DNA of 64,000 bases from contig JAIELG010000013.1 of the NCBI GenBank assembly GCA_019753155.1, positions 1 through 64,000 on the forward strand, read 5' to 3'. The position numbers were made by a program, and so were the translations under genes. This document shows, in pieces, positions 17,615-55,152 of the stretch (its first letter is position 1; every line of letters begins with the position of its first letter). The stretch is from Burkholderiales bacterium (GTDB lineage: Bacteria; Pseudomonadota; Gammaproteobacteria; Burkholderiales; JABEVD01). The notes beneath the pieces are model-generated. The model was not told where the DNA came from. It saw nothing but the letters and a program-made list of their open reading frames with translations, and searched no databases.

Positions 17615-18504
17615 CTCAGAAATTCCTTGCCCTGCATCGCAAGCTTCCCCGCCCTTCCCGGAATTTCTTCGTATACCACTTCATGTCTGGGCAATATTTC
17701 CGGAAGAGATTCGAAGTATTCCTTCAGCGAAGCGAATTCGTATCCCATGCTTTTCCATCTCTGCAGCAGCTTTTCGAATGTCCCGATCAATTTCATGCCT
17801 TCCAGTTCCGCATGCAGGGTATAGACATGGCCGGTCGGACGTGGATTTTCGCTGAGCTTGAGCATATGTTCCAGAGCGTCGCCATCGAGTCCCATCACTT
17901 CATCCAGAGTGGGTAGCGTGGTCGGAAGCTGGGGACAGGCGATGATTTCGGCCTGCTGAACCGGGACGAAAGGCGAATGTCCGCGGGTATCCGATGCATA
18001 GCGAAATCCGAGCCTCTGGGTGAGGCGAAACGCATGCGGATTCATCTGCCAGCCCGCTGCGCCGTGGGTGAGGGCGGGCTGACCGAAGATCTCCTCGAAT
18101 CTCGCGCAGGCCGCATGCATTTCACTTTCCGTCCAGGTTGCATCCGCCACGGCTACATTGTTTTGCCATTTGACATGATCGTAGGTATGGATGCCGACTT
18201 CGAATCCGGCGCTAGCGACCTGTCGCATGAGTTCCCCGCAACGCCTTCCTATATCGGGTCCGGGCAGCAGCGTGCCGTAAAGAAGGGTCTTGATGCCGTA
18301 ATGATGGATAACCGAGGTGCGCGAAACCTTCTTCATGAATCCGGGCTTGAATGCGCGTTTGACGGCCCATCCGGTATGGTCCTTTCCCAGGCTGAAAAGA
18401 AACGTGGCATTCGCGCCTGTTTTATGCAGCAGGGAAACGAGCGGCAACAGACCTTCACGGGTTCCGCGGAAGGTATCGACATCGATTTTCAGGGCGAGCT
18501 TCAT
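17611..18504 (-). CDS. arnD: 4-deoxy-4-formamido-L-arabinose-phosphoundecaprenol deformylase (ArnD)
   Basis: A 297-aa NodB/polysaccharide deacetylase fold. [16 protein letters not shown] holds the catalytic Asp and metal-binding region, and [10 protein letters not shown] the two metal His. ArnD removes the formyl group from undecaprenyl phosphate-Ara4FN on the inner membrane before transport. The open frame runs upstream to 18612, but ATG 18504 ([10 protein letters not shown]) overlaps the preceding stop by ATGA and starts at the domain edge. Last gene of the arn operon. Confidence 0.92.
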
Positions 18505-19547
18505 GCGTCGACGAGTTTGCGCGCTTCCCCGACCTGATCCCTGTAGGCTTCGTAAATGTTGACGAGCGCATCCTCCATCGTCACTACAGGCTTCCAGTCC
18601 AGGTCGCGGCAAGTGTTGTCGATTTTCGGAACGCGGTTCTGCACGTCCTGATACCCCGTTCCATAATATTCCGCCGAAGTGGTCTCGACCACCTGGACCT
18701 TGCGCGCCGTGGATTCATATTCCGGATAGGTGAGTGCAAGATCGAGCATCATTTTCGCCAGATCCTTGACCGAATAATTGTTTTTCGGATTGCCGATGTT
18801 GTAGATTTGCCCGGATGCCACGCCGTTTTTATTGTCGATGATTTTCATGAGGGCATCGATTCCGTCGTCGATATAGGTGAAGGCGCGTTTTTGCGATCCG
18901 CCGTCGACCAGCTTGATGTTTTCTCCCCTGACGATATGGCCGAGAAACTGGGTGATGACGCGCGAACTGCCTTCCTTGTGGGTGTAGATGCTGTCGAGCC
19001 CCGCGCCGATCCAGTTGAATGGCCTGAACAGGGTGAAATCGAGTCCCTCCTGCATGCCGTAAGCCCATATCACCCTGTCCATGAGCTGCTTGCTGCAGGA
19101 ATAGATCCATCTCGGCTTGTTGATCGGCCCCAGGATCAATTCGGAATGGTCAGGGTCGAATTCGCCGTCCCTGCACATGCCGTAGACTTCGGAGGTTGAA
19201 GGGAATACCACGCGCTTGCCGTATTTGACGCAGGAGCGGACTATGGGCAGGTTCGCTTCGAAATCGAGTTCGAAGACCCGGAGCGGTTCCTTGACATAGG
19301 TTGCAGGCGTTGCGATGGCGACAAGAGGCAGGACAGTATCGCATTTCTTGACATGATATTCGATCCATTCCCTGTTGATCGTGATGTCACCCTCGAAAAA
19401 ATGAAACCTGGGGTGATCGAGCAGGTCGCTGATGCGATCCGTCTGCATATCCATGCCATAGACTTCCCAGTCCGTTGTATTGATGATGCGGTTGGAAAGA
19501 TGGTGGCCTATGAAGCCGTTTACGCCGAGAATCAGAATTTTTTTCAT
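18501..19547 (-). CDS. arnA: UDP-glucuronic acid oxidative decarboxylase (ArnA C-terminal domain as a separate gene)
   Basis: A 348-aa short-chain dehydrogenase. It has the NAD motif [10 protein letters not shown], the STSEVYGMC motif with Ser and Glu as in E. coli ArnA, and [11 protein letters not shown] with the catalytic Tyr and Lys. It oxidises and decarboxylates UDP-glucuronate to UDP-4-keto-arabinose. In E. coli this is fused to the formyltransferase in one 660-aa ArnA; here they are two genes overlapping by ATGA at 19544-19547. It overlaps arnD in the same way. Confidence 0.93.
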
Positions 19548-20476
19548 GGTTGTCCTTGGGGTAGGGAGATGGAAGAAGTGCCGAATTTTTTAAGAAACCA
19601 GTCCGCATCGGCCGCCTCGCCGTCGAGTCCGAAAGAGACCAGCCTCAGTACGCCGCCTCCGCCGCAATCGGCATAGCAGCGCCCATTTTCGCAATATATC
19701 GAAGGCGAATCGGATCGAGGGGGACGGTTTTCGATCAGCGTGCCGTACAGCGACAATTTGATCCCGTCGATCCATGCAAATGCGCCGGGATAAGGGGGGG
19801 CCACCGCGCGAACAAGATTGTGTATGGATTGGGCGGAGGCATGCCAGTTTATTTTCCCATCCTCGGCCTTGCGGCCTCCGAAGTAGCTTCCCTGGCCGAG
19901 ATCCTGCTTCCTGAGTATTGCCTGCCCCGAGACGAGTTCCGGCAAAGCCCTGCAGAGCATGATTTCCGCTGCGCATGTGACCTTGTGAAACACCTCGGTT
20001 GCAGTGTCGTCAGGCAGGATGGGAACGGCCTGCTGGTCCACGATGTCTCCGTTGTCCGGTTTTTCCGTCATCCTGTGCAGCGTCGCTCCGGTTTCGGTCT
20101 CTCCATGAATGATGGCCCAGTTGACCGGCACGCGGCCGCGGTATTTCGGAAGCAGCGAGCCGTGCATGTTGTATGCGCCCGATTTCGGCAGGGTCAGAAG
20201 CTCCGCCTTCAGCATGTTCCGGTAATAAAAGGAGAAGATGAAATCAGGCTGCAATGAGGCGATGATATCGACGACTTCAGGCGTATTCGGGTCGGCGGGT
20301 TTGATGACTGGGATATCGTGCAGGGCCGCGAGATCCGAGATGCTTTCGAACCAGATCGCCTCATCCGGATTGTCTTCGTGCGTGACGAGGAGGGGGACTT
20401 CCACATTCCGCGCGAGCAATACCTTGAGGCAGCGCACGCCCACGTTGTGATAGCCGAACACGACAGCGCGCTTCAT
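19544..20476 (-). CDS. UDP-Ara4N formyltransferase (ArnA N-terminal domain as a separate gene)
   Basis: A 310-aa 10-formyltetrahydrofolate-dependent formyltransferase. The active-site region is [20 protein letters not shown] (Asn, His) with Asp in [11 protein letters not shown]. It formylates UDP-Ara4N so the sugar can be moved to undecaprenyl phosphate. The domain lines up with residues 1-300 of ArnA. ATGA overlaps link it to arnC upstream and to the decarboxylase downstream, so the separated halves are still translated together. Confidence 0.92.
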
Positions 20477-41207: not shown

Positions 41208-41959
41208 GCGTGCCATCTTTCGAAAAGATCGATGTCGGCGTATCGTTTGCCGTAACTCGAACCCTGCAGGACATTGAACGGGGTTTCCGGTTCTCCGAGA
41301 TCGGAGAGTATGGCGGCAGCGCCTGAAAAATTCTGATCCTTCGTGTAATCCGTGACCGTGATCACGGTTTTGATCCCTGCGCCCCGGCTTGCCTGAAAGC
41401 CGTTTTCCGAGTCTTCCACGGCAATGCAGGCCTGAGGCTGGACGCCCAGGCGTTCGATCGCCCAGAAATAAATGTCGGGGGCGGGTTTCTTGGCCGGCAC
41501 GATGTCTCCTGCTGCGATGACATCGAACCAGTTCGCCGCATCAGGGTCCAGGCTGCATTTAAGCAATGTGGTCACATTCCCGGGAGTCGTGGTCGTGACG
41601 ATGGCAAGCTTCATGTCGCGCGCCATCGCTTCCTTCAGGAGGCGTGAAATGCCCGGACGCATCGGGATGTTTCCGGCTTCGAGTATCTCGGCGTAATATT
41701 TCGTTTTCTCGCGGTGCAATTGGCTCACGAGGTCGTCGAAATCGGATGGCTTGACGTATGCCTTGTTCCAGTGATCCACGTAATGGCGGATGCGCTCCTT
41801 GCCTCCCGTCACTGCGAGCAGCCTGCCGTAGAGTTCGACATCCCAGTTCCAGTCGAGGCCGAATGCCTCGAAAGCCTTGTTGAACGCGATTCTGTGTCCA
41901 TCGCGCTCGGTATCCGCGAGCGTGCCGTCCACATCGAAAAGAATGCTGGTCAGTGTCAT
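41204..41959 (-). CDS. HAD phosphatase, CbbY/beta-phosphoglucomutase-like
   Basis: A 251-aa HAD enzyme: nucleophile ILFDVDGTLADTERDGHRIA, helical cap (residues about 20-95), Thr motif LAIVTTTTPGNV, Lys and acidic motif PAKKPAPDIYFWAIERLG and IAVEDSENGFQASRGAG. Close to CbbY, which dephosphorylates xylulose 1,5-bisphosphate, a Rubisco inhibitor. Without Rubisco genes here the substrate is not certain. The open frame runs far upstream into mfd; ATG 41959 overlaps the mfd stop by ATGA. Confidence 0.9.
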   Translation of the reverse strand: MTLTSILFDVDGTLADTERDGHRIAFNKAFEAFGLDWNWDVELYGRLLAVTGGKERIRHYVDHWNKAYVKPSDFDDLVSQLHREKTKYYAEILEAGNIPMRPGISRLLKEAMARDMKLAIVTTTTPGNVTTLLKCSLDPDAANWFDVIAAGDIVPAKKPAPDIYFWAIERLGVQPQACIAVEDSENGFQASRGAGIKTVITVTDYTKDQNFSGAAAILSDLGEPETPFNVLQGSSYGKRYADIDLFERWHA

Positions 41960-52985: not shown

Positions 52986-53671
52986 CGCAATATCTCGCAC
53001 TCGTCCCCGCCGCAGGTTCGGGTTCGCGCATGGGGGGCGCAGTTCCCAAACAATATTCGATGCTCGCGGGCAAGCCCATGATCCGTCATGCAATCGAGAG
53101 CCTGTGCAATTTGCCGGAAATTCAAAGGGTTTTCGTGGTGCTCTCAGGTGATGACGCATACTGGCGGCAGTACGACTGGTCCGAGTTTGCGGGCAGGCTC
53201 GTGCCCCTGCATTGCGGAGGGGAAACCCGTGCAATGAGCGTGATGAACGGATTGAAAGCCATCGATGCGGGGGGTGAAGATTGGGTGATGGTGCATGATG
53301 CCGCGAGGCCCTGCATCGATCTCGAATCGCTGAAAAGACTGATGGACGGACTCGCGCATGACGCCGTGGGTGGGCTCCTTGCCCTGCCTGTGGCGGATAC
53401 GCTGAAGCGGGAGAATGGAGCGGGGCGCATTGCCGCCACGGTGTCCCGCGAAGGGCTGTGGCAGGCGCAGACCCCGCAGATGTTCCGCTACCGCCTGCTT
53501 CTGGATGCCTTGAGCCATGCGCCGGCCGGACAGACGGACGAAGCTGGGGCGGTCGAAGCGCTGGGGTTTTCGCCCAAACTTGTATTGGGCGATCCGCGTA
53601 ATTTCAAGGTGACTTATCCGCGCGACATCGAATTTGCGGAAATGATTTTGGCTGACAGGAATCGATCATGA
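52982..53671 (+). CDS. ispD: 2-C-methyl-D-erythritol 4-phosphate cytidylyltransferase
   Basis: A 229-aa IspD. The CTP-binding loop is [19 protein letters not shown], with the catalytic Arg and Lys, and [12 protein letters not shown] and [11 protein letters not shown] follow. It makes CDP-ME in the non-mevalonate isoprenoid pathway. ATG 52982 overlaps the GGDEF-EAL stop; the longer open frame lies inside that gene. The ispF ATG overlaps its own stop. Confidence 0.96.
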
Positions 53672-54141
53672 GAATAGGGCAGGGGTTTGACGTGCATGCG
53701 CTCGTCGAAGGGCGCAAACTGATCGTGGGCGGCGTGGATATCCCATACGGGAAGGGGCTGCTCGGGCATTCGGACGCCGATGTGCTGCTGCACGCAATAT
53801 GCGATGCGCTGATCGGCGCGGCAGGACTCGGGGACATCGGCAGGCACTTTCCCGACACCGACAGGAACTTCGAAAACATAGACAGCAGGATACTCCTGAG
53901 GGAAGTGGGAAAGCTGCTGGGCGATTCGGGTTACAGGGTCGTGAATATCGACGCCACGATCATTGCCCAGGCGCCCAAAATGGCGCCTCATATTCCGCTC
54001 ATGGTGGAGCGCATTGCATCCGACCTCGGCATGAGCGCAAGGGATGTCAACGTCAAGGCCAAAACGACCGAACATCTGGGTTTTTCCGGAAGGGGCGAGG
54101 GCATCGCGGCCGAGGCTGTGGCATTGATCGGAAGTGTCTGA
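53668..54141 (+). CDS. ispF: 2-C-methyl-D-erythritol 2,4-cyclodiphosphate synthase
   Basis: A 157-aa IspF. Zinc ligands lie in [10 protein letters not shown] (Asp, His) and the metal/diphosphate site in [31 protein letters not shown] and [20 protein letters not shown] complete the family pattern. Converts CDP-ME 2-phosphate to MEcPP. The start overlaps ispD by ATGA, and the thpR start overlaps its 3' end by 8 bp. Confidence 0.97.
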
Positions 54142-54677
54142 GCGGCTGTTTTTCGCCCTCTGGCCGGACGAGTCGACGAGAGCTCGCCTGGCGGATGCTG
54201 CGAGAATTCTATACCGGGAATGCGGCGGGAATTCTATACCGGGAATGCGGCGGGAAGAAGACGAAAGCTGAATCGATCCACCTCACCCTGGTCTTTCTGG
54301 GAGCGGTCGAAACCGGAAAAGTCGGGCTGCTGCGCGGCATTGCCTCAAAAATTGCGGAAAGCGCTTTCGAAGTCAGGATGGATCGGGCGGGATACTGGAA
54401 GCATAACCGGATAGCCTGGGCGGGAATGACGACCATCCCGCCTGAACTCGATCGCCTCGTGGCCGTGTTGCAGCAGGGGCTGCGCGCCGGGGGCTTCGAA
54501 TTCGACGGGCGGGCCTGGTTTCCCCATGTCACGCTCGTGCGCAAGGCTGATGCACCCGAAACAGACCCCGATTTCCAGGCGTTTTCCTGGCCCGTATCGG
54601 AATTTTGCCTCGCAGCATCCACGGCTTCGGGCTATGCGATTCTCGATAAATGGCCTTTGCCGGTTCCTCAAAGGTAG
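54134..54677 (+). pseudogene. thpR: RNA 2',3'-cyclic phosphodiesterase (2'-5' RNA ligase-like), frameshifted by a 25-bp duplication
   Basis: The GTG start at 54134 opens [22 protein letters not shown], a typical ThpR N-terminus. A 25-bp tandem duplication (54205-54254) then shifts the frame and translation ends after 45 residues at TGA 54269-54271. The original frame resumes after the repeat and encodes the rest, including both HxTx motifs (HLTLVFLG and HVTLVRKA). Deleting one repeat copy gives an intact 172-aa protein, the usual family length. An ATG at 54194 could restart translation without the first strand. The gene may be a fresh pseudogene or a reversible switch. Confidence 0.88.
54205..54254 (+). 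repeat. perfect 25-bp tandem duplication inside thpR
   Basis: Two identical 25-base copies (54205-54229 and 54230-54254), starting AATTCTATACC and ending GCGGCGGG. As 25 is not a multiple of three, the extra copy shifts the reading frame by one. Confidence 0.97.
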
Positions 54678-55108
54678 ATGCAGCCCTCGAGGTGACCGGC
54701 CAGGGTCTTTTCGTCCACCTTGGTGTAATCCTTTTCGAAATGATCCGACACCATGCCTTTGAGCGCAGATCCCGTGTTGCCGTTGATGAGGCCCATGAAT
54801 TGGGGCGGGGCGACCAGGATCAGGCGCTGGAATTCGTTCGAGTTTCGTCCCTGTTCGAGTTCCCGCGTCAATTGAAGGGCGAACTGTTGCGCTTCGTTCT
54901 GTTTCGGGTCGGTTGGGGGAATATATGCGCCGTGGCCGTTTCCTGCGCTCTTGTAATGTCCGGGCCTGTCGGAGACGAGGTCGGATGCTTTCTCCCGGCT
55001 TGCAGCATGTTCATATGCCCTGATTTTTTCCAGCCCCTGTTTGGGGCCCCTGTTCGTATACAGGAATGCTGAACTTGCGTTGGCAACGAGAATCCACGTG
55101 ATGGTCAT
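54668..55108 (-). CDS. host attachment family protein (PF10116-like)
   Basis: A 146-aa protein starting MTITWILVANASSAFLY, then LILVAPPQFMGLING and KDYTKVDEKTLAGHLEG. These are the marks of the 'protein required for attachment to host cells' family, related in fold to bacterial eRF1-like proteins. Named after an Agrobacterium phenotype; the molecular role in free-living bacteria is unknown. ATG 55108 is chosen over the longer frame (55138) because it gives the conserved N-terminus. Overlaps the 3' end of thpR by 10 bp, tail to tail. Confidence 0.85.
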   Translation of the reverse strand: MTITWILVANASSAFLYTNRGPKQGLEKIRAYEHAASREKASDLVSDRPGHYKSAGNGHGAYIPPTDPKQNEAQQFALQLTRELEQGRNSNEFQRLILVAPPQFMGLINGNTGSALKGMVSDHFEKDYTKVDEKTLAGHLEGCIYL

Positions 55109-55152
55109 AATGTTCTCCCTGGTTTGAAAGTGCTTCAAGACCGCACAATTCC

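Follow-up and report, generated by a model that had tools for sequence, protein, structure and literature searches.

The thpR gene described here contains a 25-bp tandem duplication, and it is probable that this single, recent event, an ordinary slippage accident, inactivated the gene in the sequenced lineage. The gene lies in a stretch of 64,000 nucleotides (the window) on contig C4 of a 2.66-Mb genome (59 contigs, 99.7% complete) and follows ispF, the 3′ end of which overlaps the start of thpR (Table 1). From the GTG start codon at 54134, the reading frame encodes the FFALW strand (at 54149) and ends at a premature TGA (54269–54271); this start frame lines up with the starts of the thpR genes of eight same-genus genomes, and the 45-aa piece alone gave no family match in profile searches. 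The downstream frame, which ends at a stop codon at 54675–54677, encodes both catalytic HxTx motifs and lacks the FFALW strand. It scored 77.6 bits against TIGR02258 (RNA 2′,3′-cyclic phosphodiesterase; cut-off 65.7; profile positions 28–166 of 180) and also exceeded the cut-off of PF02834, and it failed the stricter, enterobacterial-type model NF011704 (76.1 vs. 184). The locus thus has the profile match and the two HxTx motifs of the ThpR/LigT family (TIGR02258), but not one uninterrupted frame that includes the start strand; as judged from its sequence, it is a broken member of this family rather than a working one. The original prediction of a thpR gene broken by a clean 25-bp tandem duplication is borne out by the TIGR02258 match, by the run of identities at lag 25 and by relatives that are shorter and in frame. 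Its statement that the start region and the two motifs lie in different frames holds for the start region (FFALW) only, since both HxTx motifs share one frame.

Table 1. Coordinates (positions in the window) of the features at the thpR locus.
Feature	Coordinates	Strand	Evidence or remarks
ispF	53668–54141	+	Intact, upstream of thpR; TIGR00151, 217 bits, profile 1–153 of 155
thpR start frame, 45 aa	54134–54271	+	GTG start, FFALW strand, premature TGA; translation
Downstream thpR frame, 160 aa from internal ATG at 54195	54195–54677	+	TIGR02258 match
Left element of imperfect 12-nt seed repeat, ATGCTGCGAGAA	54195–54206	+	10/12 identical to 54245–54256
Copy 1 of 25-bp unit	54204–54228	+	Tandem Repeats Finder; lag-25 identity run
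Copy 2 of 25-bp unit	54229–54253	+	Tandem Repeats Finder; lag-25 identity run; exact 25-nt gap in 8 same-genus genes
Right element of seed repeat, ATGCGGCGGGAA	54245–54256	+	10/12 identical to left element
First HxTx motif, HLTL	54279–54290	+	Translation; alignment with relatives
Second HxTx motif, HVTL	54525–54536	+	Translation; compared with relatives

The duplication consists of two perfect copies of the 25-bp unit, followed by the first three bases of a third copy (54254–54256); together these give 28 consecutive identities at lag 25 across a 53-bp array (54204–54256). Tandem Repeats Finder, run on the 64-kb window with a minimum score of 40, reported 54195–54256 with a period of 25 and a score of 110, while the remaining rows scored 40–49; the array was not produced by chance. 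No other site with three or fewer mismatches to the 25-bp unit was found in the genome, at least one stretch of which was masked. As claimed originally, removal of one copy would restore a 172-aa protein by arithmetic: the region from 54134 to 54677 comprises 544 nt, and 544 − 25 = 519 nt corresponds to 172 codons and a stop codon. One candidate for a second lesion, an ATG that several relatives have at the thpR start and that is absent from the window, was not counted because the GTG at 54134 fits two relatives (L024 and L027) in which an MPERVFF start occupies the same place. With identical copies and a thpR gene that is otherwise without lesion, the earlier claim of a recent event agrees with our data; these two features are the sole basis on which the duplication would be called recent, and an absolute age cannot be given because the nearest relatives, the same-genus ThpR proteins, are just 50–64% identical to the window gene. 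The two-copy form is known from one assembly.

Comparison with relatives places the lesion in this genome only. All eight same-genus genomes have a thpR gene above the TIGR02258 cut-off, and the DNA alignment of each shows an exact 25-nt gap. In 43 of 45 relative rows, a pattern search gave 35 residues as the spacing from FFALW to the first HxTx motif, and the start strand was FFALW or a close variant in all 45. Seven rows (L032–L038) represent second copies of same-genus genes and were left out, which gives 38 relatives; 36 of these have a spacing of 35 by pattern and one (L012) by eye, and the spacing is 32 in the remaining one (L016). The two exceptions are both same-order relatives: L012 has FFGLW instead of FFALW, and L016 is the sole relative with three residues fewer between FFALW and HLTL. 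The distance from FFALW to HLTL is thus 130 nt in the window and 105 nt in 37 of the 38 relatives, a difference of exactly 25 nt (130 = 105 + 25). Relatives with a naturally longer, in-frame version had been named in advance as an observation that would speak against the duplication; none of the 38 is lengthened at this site (37 have a spacing of 35 and one of 32).

We also compared 200 genomes of the same order (own genome included; completeness ≥90%), 103 of which had a match above the TIGR02258 cut-off; weaker matches below the cut-off, some of which also start late, were left out of the 103. The match begins at profile position 28 in the own genome and at positions 1–9 in the other 102, and no internal stop was found in the TIGR02258 matches of the 103 genomes. 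A single late-starting match among 103 argues for a lesion of one genome and not for a feature of the group. A second thpR copy was looked for and not found; the searches of the genome gave one PF13563 match and one TIGR02258 match.

An imperfect 12-nt direct repeat (ATGCTGCGAGAA and ATGCGGCGGGAA) marks the ends of the duplicated stretch; at the homologous place in the eight same-genus genes, only 3–6 of 12 positions are identical. Pairs of 12-mers at least this good and with a matched 3′ end occurred at 172 of the 2,302,434 position–lag pairs in the window (lags 15–50; the locus itself counted). Before the event, the two imperfect repeats would have lain 25 bp apart; most likely, the replicating strand then slipped back between them, such that the intervening stretch was replicated a second time. 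Because a 25-nt insertion shifts the frame, translation that begins at the GTG stops after 45 codons, and the HxTx-bearing part would no longer be produced as part of the enzyme. The locus has what is expected of slippage-type duplications (i.e., perfect copies and short direct homology at the ends), and a single slippage event seeded by the 12-nt repeat is the simplest history of the duplication. A mutator background was considered and rejected on the basis of mutL, the one repair gene searched for this purpose, which is intact. In a survey of perfect tandem duplications with units of 12–300 bp (277,471 bp of unmasked sequence from the window and 11 of 12 further stretches of the own genome), we identified one more, with a 42-bp unit, which is in frame. 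This array (L058, positions 2548–2645, contig C8) contains about 2.3 copies within a 647-aa ORF and the encoded repeats, of the ELDQQRKQNEQLDL type, have a coiled-coil look by eye.

Slippage can remove one of two perfect short tandem copies again, and the 25-bp unit alters the reading frame; the original prediction had therefore offered two readings, a new pseudogene or an on/off switch, of which the pseudogene is well supported. A reversible phase switch, in which thpR would be turned on and off in the population by slippage between the perfect copies and under selection, is very unlikely here. Copy number at the site does not vary among the relatives as it does in contingency loci (0/38 longer, one three residues shorter), neither a repeat tract nor the seed is conserved (10/12 identical positions here vs. 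3–6/12 in the eight same-genus genes), and there are two copies only; for these reasons, a dedicated switch is unsupported. To our knowledge, a cytoplasmic enzyme acting on RNA ends is not a usual contingency gene, which also counts against a switch. Published examples point in both directions. Reversible silencing via frameshift indels (sequential indels) is proposed for M. tuberculosis in the available text of PMC8339072, and the accessible part of PMC6686034 describes reversion of 2 of 30 passaged agr-negative variants of S. aureus, one with a duplication and an inversion, both of which count in favor of a switch; the same part of PMC6686034 describes an S. aureus agrA duplication mutant that gave no revertants, which counts against one.

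Loss of the enzyme activity is the most likely consequence of the frameshift, as far as the sequence allows us to infer. According to the portion of PMC5283653 available to us, Arg6 in strand β-1 of E. coli LigT binds the 5′-phosphate of NADP+ in the complex, the sugar ring of which packs on Phe8; by analogy, the Arg6/Phe8 region may correspond to the strand lost here. An active product could be imagined if translation started at the internal ATG at 54195, given the 160-aa frame that includes the two HxTx motifs, or if ribosomal frameshifting occurred at the premature TGA. That the gene still works in either way is highly improbable: the 160-aa frame lacks the start strand, found as FFALW or a close variant in each of the 45 relative rows, and inspection by eye revealed neither a recognizable ribosome-binding site ahead of 54195 nor a convincing slippery site. 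The downstream frame is also open backwards through ispF, forming a misleading 292-aa ORF (53799–54677); this was taken as a composition effect because the thpR frames of four same-genus genomes are likewise open (327–332 aa). Annotators could miscall the 292-aa or the 160-aa frame as an intact thpR gene. On the minus strand, a 156-aa ORF (54668–55138) converges on the end of thpR with a slight overlap and had no match in NCBIfam up to an E value of 0.1.

The inactivated allele appears to be tolerated, the enzyme being dispensable. This is suggested by the 91 of 200 same-order genomes in which no thpR match was found and by a LigT knockout in E. coli, which, in the accessible text of PMC5283653, had no obvious effect on growth under laboratory conditions. 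The literature searched, as far as its text was accessible, contained no description of a thpR pseudogene, and nothing wider is claimed.

It is improbable, though less so than a switch, that the duplication arose as an artefact of assembly or library preparation, or that the assembler chose a minority variant from a population that has one copy. The genome is a draft in 59 contigs, and some of the same-genus relatives are metagenome-assembled genomes that carry the label Proteobacteria or Burkholderiales; both facts leave room for such an error. By reasoning, however, the seed elements of the one-copy form would share no exact stretch of more than four bases (ATGC), and there would therefore be no de Bruijn graph loop to unroll; assemblers usually collapse tandem copies rather than expand them; and an ordinary short read exceeds the 53-bp array in length. 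A gene-splitting check also counts against an artefact: 40 other window proteins (ispD and 39 of 54 chosen ORFs) were compared with NCBIfam, 28 of these matched at 1e-30 (the 12 without match being uninformative), and among the 28 no gene was seen to be split by a frameshift. Several NCBIfam matches were partial, either because the domain make-up of the family differs or because the gene leaves the window (valS). An apparently split ArnA was rejected as a candidate; the adjacent ORFs at 18504–19547 and 19547–20476 each match one half of the bifunctional ArnA model and were read as two whole genes because each matches a one-function model near full length. Elsewhere in the window, the region between serB and mfd (41217–41955; about 740 bp) contains no chosen ORF of at least 80 aa, and neither a tRNA nor an Rfam family passed the threshold in any part of the window.

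The presence of thpR across the order is associated with that of rtcB, encoding an RNA ligase. In the 200-genome sample (matches at E values up to 0.001), 74 genomes had both genes, 35 had thpR only, 12 had rtcB only and 79 had neither (odds ratio 13.9, Fisher p = 1.5e-15, uncorrected for shared ancestry). For one control gene of similar frequency, katG, no association was seen either with thpR (43/66/45/46; odds ratio 0.67 and p = 0.20) or in the comparison with rtcB (34/52/54/60; odds ratio 0.73 and p = 0.31). Six of the eight same-genus genomes have an rtcB match, and none was found in the own genome. It is possible, but unlikely, that ThpR and RtcB act together in a bacterial RNA-repair pathway and that the duplication represents the last dismantling step in a lineage that lacks an rtcB match and is losing thpR. 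Two observations speak against a tight dependence: thpR occurs without rtcB in 34 other genomes of the sample, and two same-genus genomes without an rtcB match, G006 (82% complete) and G007, have an intact thpR; decay of thpR through loss of its partner is, for this reason, a lead only. When the 20-kb surroundings of rtcB in two relatives were used to look for a former rtcB site, no DNA match longer than 150 bp turned up on contig C4, and the site was not located. The biological function of ThpR was called unknown in the available parts of PMC5283653 (2017) and PMC3400036 (2012), and the co-occurrence of thpR and rtcB across the order may provide a testable hint on its role. A report of this co-occurrence was not found in the literature searched, as far as its accessible text goes, and no wider claim is made.

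Taken alone, the broken thpR gene matters little; it represents a clear and very young pseudogene with a readable one-event history, which is ordinary biology. With ThpR/LigT enzymes (2H phosphoesterases; TIGR02258, PF02834), the locus shares the two HxTx motifs as well as FFALW, the latter in another frame; unlike in these enzymes, the frame is interrupted after the start strand and before the first HxTx motif. With phase-variable (contingency) genes that carry repeat tracts, it shares a frame-changing repeat in the coding region; unlike these genes, it has two copies, no longer form among 38 relatives and a seed that is not conserved in the eight same-genus genes. With frameshift pseudogenes that arise by short tandem duplication, it shares perfect head-to-tail copies, short flanking homology, a duplication length that is not a multiple of three and the absence of any further lesion, and it has nothing distinctive that would set it apart from them.
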